NCBI RefSeq assembly: GCF_913055775.1 | Contig: NZ_CAJXJX010000013.1 | Coordinates: 1-33,554, forward strand | Length of the DNA stretch: 33,554 nt | Source of the DNA: an uncultured Demequina sp. | GTDB lineage: Bacteria; Actinomycetota; Actinomycetes; Actinomycetales; Demequinaceae | Direction of reading: 5' to 3' | In this document: piece by piece, positions 3,668 through 28,944 of the stretch | How the letters are laid out: every line of letters begins with the position of its first letter | How positions within the stretch are numbered: position 1 is the stretch's first letter | Program-made: the position numbers and the translations under genes | Notes under the pieces: generated by a model | Told to the model about the DNA's origin: nothing | Database searches by the model: none | What the model saw: only the letters and a program-made list of their open reading frames with translations

Positions 3668-3703
3668 GGGGGTTCCGCATCGCATCCGCGATGCGGAACC
3701 CCC
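3668..3703 (+). terminator. Intra-operon stem-loop (attenuator/3' stabiliser)
   Basis: Perfect 16-bp stem GGGGGTTCCGCATCGC / GCGATGCGGAACCCCC with ATCC loop, between SBP and ATPase genes; no T-tract follows. Confidence 0.8.
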
Positions 3704-5786: not shown

Positions 5787-5823
5787 CGTGCGTGCCCCGA
5801 CCGTCACGGTCGGGGCACGCACG
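5787..5823 (+). terminator. Strong stem-loop, likely terminator of the ABC operon
   Basis: CGTGCGTGCCCCGACC / GGTCGGGGCACGCACG 16-bp perfect stem, 5-nt loop, immediately after the permease stop. Confidence 0.8.
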
Positions 5824-13502: not shown

Positions 13503-13982
13503 ATGCCCACCCCTGACTTCGTCCTGAAGCTGCGCGAGCGCATCGGCCACGATCTGCTGTGGATGCCGGGTGTCACGGCTGTGATCCTCCGCGAGACCTC
13601 GGGCGGCACCGAGGTGCTGCTGGTGAAGCGCGCGGACAACGGCGCCTGGACACCCGTGACGGGCATCATCGACCCGGGGGAGGAGCCCGCGGGCGCAGGT
13701 GCGCGCGAGGCGCTCGAGGAGGCCGACGTGGTGGCCGTGCCGGAGGCGCTGGTGCGGGTGCGGGCGCTCGAGCCCCTCACCTACGACAACGGCGACCGGT
13801 CGCAGTACCTGGACCTCACGTACCGCTTCCGTTGGGTCAGCGGTGAGCCGCACCCCGCGGACGGCGAGAACACCGAGGCGCGATGGTTCCCCACCACAGC
13901 GCTGCCGGACATGAGCACGGAGATGGGCGACCGCATCGGCGCCGCGCTGCGAGGCGACGACATCGCGGACTTCCTGCCCTGA
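13503..13982 (+). CDS. NUDIX hydrolase
   Basis: Nudix box-like GIIDPGEEPAGAGAREALEEADV. Confidence 0.92.
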   Translation: MPTPDFVLKLRERIGHDLLWMPGVTAVILRETSGGTEVLLVKRADNGAWTPVTGIIDPGEEPAGAGAREALEEADVVAVPEALVRVRALEPLTYDNGDRSQYLDLTYRFRWVSGEPHPADGENTEARWFPTTALPDMSTEMGDRIGAALRGDDIADFLP

Positions 13983-14001
13983 TCCCACCCACCCCCCGCG
14001 C

Positions 14002-14065
14002 CCGCGAAGTGGATCCCTTTCGCTTGCCCAAGCGCTAAGACAAGCGAAAAGGATCCCTTTCGCGG
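14002..14065. repeat. 64-bp imperfect palindrome made of two GGATCC-centred 20-bp sub-palindromes, in a convergent intergenic region
   Basis: CCGCGAAGTGGATCCCTTTCGCTTGCCCAAGCGCTAAGACAAGCGAAAAGGATCCCTTTCGCGG; 27 of 32 positions pair across the centre (14033.5); subunits at 14004-14023 and 14044-14063. Confidence 0.85.
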
Positions 14066-14077
14066 AAAGGGGCGGGG

Positions 14078-15571
14078 CTAGTGCGCCGCTATCGGGGCTT
14101 CGCCCTCGACCTTCTCCGGGCGTCGGATCAGGGTCGCCAGGCCGATGCCGAGCGTCGCGAGGATCGCGCCCACCAGGAACGCCGTCCGGATGCCCGCCGC
14201 CTCGGCGGTGGCCTCGGACGCGCCCCCGTCGATCTGCGTGATCGCGACGGCCGTCATGGTCGACACGAACAGCGCTGTGCCGGCCGCGGCCGCCACCTGC
14301 TGCAGCGTCGAGATGGTCGCTGAGCCGTGCGAGTACAGGTGCTGGGGCAGCGACCCCAGGCTCGCGGTGAACAGCGGCGTGAAGATGAGTGCCAGACCCG
14401 CGCTCAGGGTGACGTGGCACGCGAGCACCATCCACGGCTGAGTGGCGGTGGACAGCGTGAGCGCGAGCATCCACAGCGCGGTCGCGACGAGCGCGGTGCC
14501 AGGGATGAGCAGGGGGCGGGGGCCGATGCGGTCGTAGAGCCGGCCCACCGGTCGCGCCATCACGCCCATCAGCAGGCCGCCCGGCAGCAGCATGAGACCG
14601 GTCTGGAGGACGCTCAGGCCCAGCACGCCCTGGGTGAACAGCGGCACCAGGATGATGGTGCCGAACAGGGCCATCATCGCGACCACGAACATCGCCGTCG
14701 CGACGGAGAAGGTGCGCTCGCGGAACACGCGCAGGTCCAGCAGCGGGGCGTCACGCTTCTGGAGAACGATCTGGCGCCACGCGAACACGCCGGTCACCAC
14801 CACGCCGATGACCGCGAAGGCGATCGCAACCAACACATTGCCCTCCGCGGACTCGCCGATCTGCGACAGCCCGAACACGAGAGAGCCGAAGCCCACGGCG
14901 GCTAGCAGCACCGACGGCAGGTCGAGCGGCGCCGGGCGAGTCTCGTTAGTTGAGCGCATCTTGAGGAAGCCGAACACCAGCACCGTGATCGCCACGGGCA
15001 GCACGAACACGAACAGGAAGCGCCACGGCAGGAACTGCAGGATGACGCCCGAGATGGTCGGGCCCAGCGCCGGCGCCACCGAGATCACGAGGCCGATGGT
15101 GCCCATGCGCTTGCCGCGCTCGTGCTCGGGCACCAGGGAGATGACCGTGGTCATGAGCAGCGGCAGCATCACCGCCGTGCCGGTGGCCTGGATGACGCGC
15201 GCGCCGAGCAGCACCTCGAAGCCCGGAGCGACGGCGGCCAGCGCGGTGCCCGCGACGAACGTCGACATCGCCGCGAGGTACAGCGGGCGGGTGGGGAAGC
15301 GCTGCAGCAGCCAGCCGGTGATGGGGATCACCACGGCCATGGTCAGCAGGAATGCGGCGGTCAGCCACTGCGCGTCCACCGCGGTGATGTCGAGGTCCGC
15401 CATGAGGTGGGGGATCGCGACGCCCATGATCGTCTCGTTCAGGATCACCGTGAAAGCGGACACGATGAGCACCATGATCACGAGGTTGTCGCGACGGCTC
15501 GTGGTCGCGGCGGCGTCAGGAGTGGTGGTGGTGCGGGCGTTGCTGGTGGCGGGCGCGGTCGTCTCGGCCAT
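14078..15571 (-). CDS. MFS transporter, DHA2 (EmrB/QacA-like) drug exporter family
   Basis: TVILNETIMGVAIPHLMADL, DAQWLTAAFLLTMAVVIPITGWL, about 14 TM segments; start chosen at MAETTAP. Confidence 0.92.
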   Translation of the reverse strand: MAETTAPATSNARTTTTPDAAATTSRRDNLVIMVLIVSAFTVILNETIMGVAIPHLMADLDITAVDAQWLTAAFLLTMAVVIPITGWLLQRFPTRPLYLAAMSTFVAGTALAAVAPGFEVLLGARVIQATGTAVMLPLLMTTVISLVPEHERGKRMGTIGLVISVAPALGPTISGVILQFLPWRFLFVFVLPVAITVLVFGFLKMRSTNETRPAPLDLPSVLLAAVGFGSLVFGLSQIGESAEGNVLVAIAFAVIGVVVTGVFAWRQIVLQKRDAPLLDLRVFRERTFSVATAMFVVAMMALFGTIILVPLFTQGVLGLSVLQTGLMLLPGGLLMGVMARPVGRLYDRIGPRPLLIPGTALVATALWMLALTLSTATQPWMVLACHVTLSAGLALIFTPLFTASLGSLPQHLYSHGSATISTLQQVAAAAGTALFVSTMTAVAITQIDGGASEATAEAAGIRTAFLVGAILATLGIGLATLIRRPEKVEGEAPIAAH

Positions 15572-16536: not shown

Positions 16537-16634
16537 GGCTCCCAGCCTAGGAGGGATCACAGAGGGCCGATGCCGTGGCGAGGTCCCGCGCGAACGGTTG
16601 CCGGGGGGATGGTCGCCTGGCGTACGGTACGGGC

Positions 16635-28907: not shown

Positions 28908-28944
28908 CCGCGTGCGTCACCCTGGCAGAGGGCCGATGCGGGGC

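Follow-up and report, generated by a model that had tools for sequence, protein, structure and literature searches.

The 64-bp near-palindrome at positions 14002-14065 of the 33,554-nt stretch of Demequina DNA analysed here (the window) is best read as a non-autonomous member of a family of dispersed repeats that has one nuclease gene of the same genome as its cognate (G000:C126:150-1058; AbiEi-Vsr type, DUF559/REase_MTES_1575). The repeat forms a family with preferred genomic positions, inverted copies of it surround the nuclease gene, repeat and gene co-occur across genomes, and the two match each other species by species; from this we infer that the nuclease drives the spread of the repeat, and give the reading as a whole a probability of roughly 0.6.

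Sequence and coordinates of the palindrome were verified as exact. It is the top-ranked inverted repeat of the whole window and the sole copy of the element there, with arms (14002-14033 and 14034-14065, spacer 0) that are 81% complementary, pairing at 26 of 32 Watson-Crick positions; the near-palindrome reported in an earlier note on this DNA is therefore real, its count of about 27 pairs being corrected to 26. Inverted-repeat, folding and covariance-model analyses delimit an unstranded element of the form P1-P2-P1, centred at 14033/14034, which comprises P1 unit a (14004-14023; palindrome GCGAAGTGGATCCCTTTCGC, family consensus GCGAARTGGRYCCAYTTCGC), a P2 unit (14024-14043; degenerate central palindrome TTGCCCAAGCGCTAAGACAA, family version CTCGCCTAAGCGCTTAGGCGAG) and P1 unit b (14044-14063; palindrome GCGAAAAGGATCCCTTTCGC, 40 bp from unit a). 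The direct repeat noticed earlier, GGATCCCTTTCGC at 14011 and 14051, is confirmed at a spacing of exactly 40 bp, and the two 20-mers are palindromic as claimed, but imperfectly so (8/10 and 9/10 Watson-Crick pairs, read off the sequence). RNA spanning 13995-14072 has a folding energy of -41 kcal/mol, whereas its shuffles average -24 (z -5.18; none of 200 reaches the native value), and the covariance model matches the element on either strand (E 6e-16 and 9e-16). Covariation lay weakly above shuffles for one long hairpin and for two short ones, with direct-repeat similarity raised equally, a signal that cannot separate selection on an RNA hairpin from within-genome homogenisation. The element occupies the gap between the stop codons of two convergent genes, as had been stated, and Pfam matches confirm both: a NUDIX hydrolase gene on the left (13503-13982, + strand; PF00293, E 4.9e-16) and an MFS transporter gene on the right (14078-15571, - strand; PF07690, E 3.1e-54). 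Between element and genes lie a pyrimidine-rich left flank (13983-14001; family mean 68% Y) and a purine-rich right flank (14066-14077; family mean 67% R), the latter with a U tract absent on both strands.

The window's genome (G000; genus Demequina, 2.71 Mb in 208 contigs) contains about 55 dispersed sites, at which the 20-bp palindrome occurs about 90 times in all. BLAST of the 64-mer found some 20 near full-length sites at 75-85% identity, the 20-mer P1 pattern GCGARRTGGRYCCAYYTCGC (≤3 mismatches) gave 106 matches against 4 for the reversed control, and the covariance model gave 105 matches over two strands, at about 53 sites. Stretches fetched around the matches hold 57 clusters with 95 units, 1 to 4 units each, a few of these clusters (one or two single units) being probably due to chance. 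The BLAST and P1-pattern matches throughout the genome rule out a single-copy curiosity, the outcome that the earlier note had itself named as fatal to its proposal. Each P1 unit is a palindrome with a GGATCC or GGGCCC core, P2 is a second palindrome between P1s, tandem units are spaced exactly 40 bp apart, and in many copies an additional inverted module, B (GCGGTCGATTCTCGCTC ... GAGCGAGAATCGACCGC), lengthens the element. Several copies stand at contig ends, as expected of repeats. With its roughly 55 sites, modular tandem build and enrichment in convergent gaps, the element is dispersed and REP/BIME- or MITE-like, as the note had proposed.

The associated gene is of another kind than the TnpA-REP (Y1 HUH) gene that had been suggested: the Y1 transposase (PF01797; RAYT) was found in 0 of 44 Demequina genomes by a search that was positive in the E. 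coli control, and an AbiEi-Vsr/DUF559 nuclease gene stands in that position instead. In G000 this gene (150-1058 of contig C126) is flanked by inverted P1-P2-B modules, the left side showing P1-P2-B and the right side B' and P2', after which the contig stops, and the left flank has a median identity of 72% to dispersed copies, versus 46% for random regions. In genome G016 the repeat arms form MITE-like pairs about 125-240 bp apart (private derivatives, about 150-260 bp long, that keep these ends), and in one place they bound a 1.13-kb unit with a single 305-aa ORF. The C-terminus of the encoded protein matches REase_MTES_1575 (PF18741, 1.9e-8) and DUF559 (PF04480, 1.5e-5), while the AbiEi match of its N-terminus is weak (PADLOC E 4e-7, Pfam 0.04, PDB profile 0.18); a family profile gave correctly placed matches to AbiEi, AbiGI and an endonuclease-like PDB entry, which individually fall short of significance. 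By these matches, the partner is a protein of about 300 aa with a weakly AbiEi-like N-terminus and a predicted Vsr/DUF559-type PD-(D/E)XK nuclease domain.

Close homologues occur in G033, G015, G031, G000, G065, G036 and G008, and a more distant one in G034. The homologues in G033, G015, G031, G065, G036 and G008 lie between inverted copies of the repeat version found in the same species (scores 34-64), and the arms measure 59 nt in G033, 57 in G015, 63 in G031, 62 in G065, 64 (perfect) in G036 and 61 in G008, against 26 bp (perfect) in G016. One flanking copy lies downstream of the nuclease stop codon, and inverted copies lie 80-230 bp upstream of the start. Eleven alignment columns are invariant, including E247, D249, H254, D263 and R266, and conservation of these residues together with E204 and D236 suggests a working nuclease. 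Among five core species the C-terminal third is 58-79% conserved, versus 47-66% for the first 200 residues, and MurC is better conserved than the protein in all genome pairs, though by a narrow margin in G031-G033. Sizes and order of neighbouring genes match in G016, G033, G031 and G000, and the nuclease gene therefore looks resident rather than hopping, as RAYTs do. Separately, the gene of G060 appears to be split into two overlapping pieces in different frames (L320, G060:C1:1207603-1208446), and about 13 repeat sites persist in that genome.

The nuclease subfamily is present in 8 of 8 repeat-rich genomes (G000, G031, G008, G033, G060, G015, G036 and G016) versus 1 of 36 others (G065), counts that ignore phylogeny, include G060 with its broken gene and depend on a subfamily cut-off set after the list was seen, with G034 and G021 just below it. 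Best gene-spanning inverted repeats scoring at least 18 were found at 16 of 29 homologues, versus 1 of 86 G033 genes of similar length and none of 55 NUDIX/murC control loci. The sole control exception (L205:15071-15835 in G033; score 45) is, by eye, a fructosamine kinase-like gene. Most Demequina genomes carry several DUF559-type genes, and many paralogues have no clear flanking repeat. Of 23 further homologues, eight reach a score of 18 or more, and three of the five loci from another family, f8, are among them (54, 35 and 29). In 200-kb samples, two G043 gene flanks recur at 1 and 3 places and a G001 flank at two sites (3 units), and a G033 gene flank recurs at 4 places in 400 kb; shuffled flank queries gave 11 matches in 210 query-database pairs. 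Many other DUF559-type genes of the genus, as well as some from another family, are flanked by inverted palindromes of their own.

Across 85,462 genomes, the exact two-unit pattern was found only in Demequina sp. NBRC 110053 and NBRC 110056, besides two lone matches in an Agrococcus MAG (L167:1361-1426) and a Deltaproteobacteria MAG; a crude scan of the stretches around these two (8 kb for Agrococcus) found no DUF559-like motif, and a plasmid search gave no useful homologue. Covariance-model matches are strong in G000, G031, G008, G033, G060, G015 and G036, with a few in other Demequina genomes. One copy in G000 lies in frame within murC (L146:2802-2865), and at that point the murC genes of G016, G031, G033, G060 and G015 (L225, L226, L227, L230, L231) contain an inserted hairpin whose sequence differs from species to species, which brings the total to six Demequina species; 24 other aligned species have a short linker at that position. 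The G016 version is private, with 59 BLAST matches in G016, none in eight of nine other genomes searched and one weak site in the ninth, G024. In G016, G031, G033 and G015 the murC insertion best matches the nuclease-gene flank of its own species. A translated hairpin is hardly a terminator, so the source of its symmetry must be either the biology of the element itself or template switching, a process able to rewrite the arms of hairpins (PMC8794818). A murC hairpin that resembles each species' resident nuclease-gene flanks amounts to a natural experiment on concerted evolution.

With genes in the G000 stretches called by a codon-usage script, copies are almost exclusively intergenic, in surrounding DNA that is 90% coding. 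The 49 placed intergenic clusters fall into 22 convergent, 24 tandem and 3 divergent gaps, and element-free gaps of at least 20 bp in the same stretches number 14, 72 and 40, respectively. The bias towards convergent regions that the earlier note had proposed to check is thus present (enrichment p = 4e-6), together with a divergent depletion (p = 3e-4). The elements fold with a mean energy of -40 kcal/mol on both strands, and their flanks are 68% pyrimidine on the left and 67% purine on the right, against 53% and 58% at element-free convergent stops (n = 12). Position and folding make the bidirectional terminator suggested earlier plausible; nothing shows that it is switchable, and 0 of 74 element flanks carry a U tract (at least 5 T in 12 nt), which rules out a canonical U-tailed intrinsic terminator. 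At its own locus, the window element is probably a hairpin that serves as a 3' end in both directions and lacks a U tract. Two minus-strand predictions of a terminator scanner for the window element were set aside since they rest on internal sub-hairpins, and Rfam returned no family at gathering score, only chance mir-4679 matches far below the cut-off.

These data also feed the best-surviving rival, which we consider improbable: that the repeats are terminators or mRNA 3'-end hairpins under selection, that gene conversion keeps the copies similar, and that those inverted around the nuclease gene are no more than border terminators. It would draw on the convergent enrichment, the divergent depletion and the folding on both strands, and on the orthologous NUDIX/MFS gaps of G033, G031 and G015, where long hairpins stand whose sequences differ (that of G031 can be recognised as the window element's counterpart, those of G033 and G015 share its design but have other sequences); further orthologous gaps also hold long hairpins with changed sequence. 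It would gain, too, from 400 kb of G033, where strong palindromes occur in 32% of convergent, 8% of tandem, 2.5% of divergent and 0% of shuffled convergent gaps. However, the 74 flanks lack a U tract, six species carry in-frame copies inside murC, and the rival leaves unexplained both the inverted copies upstream of the nuclease start and why the repeat-rich genomes are those with the nuclease subfamily.

Other hairpins of the window and the genus were seen alongside. Perfect inverted repeats at 5787-5823 and 3668-3703 of the window (18- and 16-bp arms), just past stop codons of called genes, are probably ordinary hairpin terminators. The motif GGAGGGCCGATGCGCGGGC recurs between genes throughout the genus and frequently lies 5-25 bp downstream of a stop codon; it stands alone, next to the palindromes or in inverted pairs that make up convergent hairpins (window 28930-28939 and 16564-16573; L101:768-810; L204:8861-8932; L204:11731-11788), and may be the stem of the terminators usual in this genus. 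In G033 there is a second palindrome that looks dispersed, with the core GAAAGTGGGCCCACTTTC (L205:1605-1693, L213:7038-7157, L215:12076-12300), and long convergent hairpins around TCAACACACA...TGTGTGTTGA (L222:18995-19149, L211:9535-9842, L221:17976-18220) are possibly another palindromic family.

A less probable rival holds that the AbiEi-like protein is a regulator or defence nuclease, that P1 units are its operators and that dispersed copies are regulatory or self/non-self marks rather than mobile DNA. The weak AbiEi similarity of the N-terminus speaks for it, as does the binding of AbiEi to inverted repeats in its own promoter (PMC7319586), but copies avoid divergent, promoter-rich gaps, one flanking copy lies past the nuclease stop codon, and the private MITE-like derivatives of G016, about 150-260 bp long with the same ends, look like dispersed DNA rather than operators. 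Very unlikely is an origin of the elements as MITEs from an ordinary DDE insertion sequence, unseen or lost, with the nuclease as passenger: it would fit the inverted ends and internal-deletion derivatives of G016, but the same kind of gene, catalytic residues kept, lies between arms of differing sequence in seven species, no target duplications were seen and the Y1 transposase is absent.

Under the preferred reading of a nuclease-driven repeat family, the AbiEi-like N-terminal part would bind the P1/P2 palindromes and the PD-(D/E)XK domain would nick or cut them, whereupon repair or replication could copy the element to new sites or over older copies, in a homing- or REP-like spread that would also keep the copies within one genome alike. 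The dimeric protein-binding site suggested in the earlier note would be compatible with such an AbiEi-like DNA-binding part in the partner protein. A copy lodged between genes would provide a hairpin, lacking a U tract, for 3' ends or termination in both directions, and copies may survive in convergent gaps for that reason. Counting against the spread model, no clean empty site, target duplication or strain-level presence/absence was seen for dispersed copies; by eye, the flanks, pyrimidine-rich on the left and purine-rich on the right, show no target-site duplication. Also weighing against the preferred reading are the similar neighbourhood that the nuclease gene keeps in four genomes, the weak AbiEi match and the paralogues that lack a clear flanking repeat. 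At even odds, we would extend the proposal to AbiEi-Vsr (DUF559-type) nucleases of Actinobacteria as a separate repeat-spreading class, each member binding and cutting its own palindrome and so spreading and homogenising a private hairpin family, an independent PD-(D/E)XK counterpart of REP/RAYT. If this is true, the common DUF559-type genes, without an assigned role here, would gain one in driving dispersed palindromes, and REP/RAYT-like systems would have arisen with an unrelated enzyme; the protein and its own species-specific palindrome would then be a directly testable pair. We found no literature linking DUF559 to palindromic or inverted repeats in this sense, in a search that covered subscription journals poorly.

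Among known systems, the closest parallels are with REP/BIME-RAYT REPtrons, in which RAYT genes are flanked by inverted REPs that co-evolve with them (PMC2817692) and REPs favour convergent and unidirectional gaps (PMC3733652). As there, the palindromes are short, intergenic and present in tens of copies with a convergent/unidirectional bias; they build modular tandem arrays, and the cognate gene, though here a nuclease, lies between inverted copies. Repeat and gene also co-diverge, with private versions per species at the nuclease gene and murC by sequence matching, and the cognate gene evolves faster than MurC in most genome pairs. Unlike in REP/RAYT, the enzyme is an AbiEi-Vsr PD-(D/E)XK nuclease rather than a Y1 HUH enzyme, no Y1_Tnp occurs in the genus (44 genomes), no GTAG or CGTC head stands beside P1 (alignment and consensus of 31 copies), and the P1-P2 period is fixed at 40 bp. 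Absence of a Y1 gene from the 44 genomes rules out identity as a REP with a RAYT and, as the tests for Y1 enzyme and GTAG head both failed, we do not file the family under REP/RAYT, although the two appear to work alike. With MITEs, ERIC, BOX and RUP (PMC10969869) the family shares non-coding, dispersed and modular copies with inverted ends and RNA hairpins, some of them intragenic, but its arms are shared with a DUF559-group nuclease gene. Rickettsia palindromic elements (PMC10969869) likewise insert in frame into housekeeping genes, here murC of six species; only one clear in-gene site was found in our family, which is otherwise intergenic. AbiEi antitoxins of type IV toxin-antitoxin systems, which bind pairs of 23-bp inverted repeats near their own gene (PMC7319586), resemble the N-terminal part weakly, whereas the Demequina protein is fused to a nuclease domain and its inverted repeats not only stand on either side of the gene but are scattered over the whole genome.
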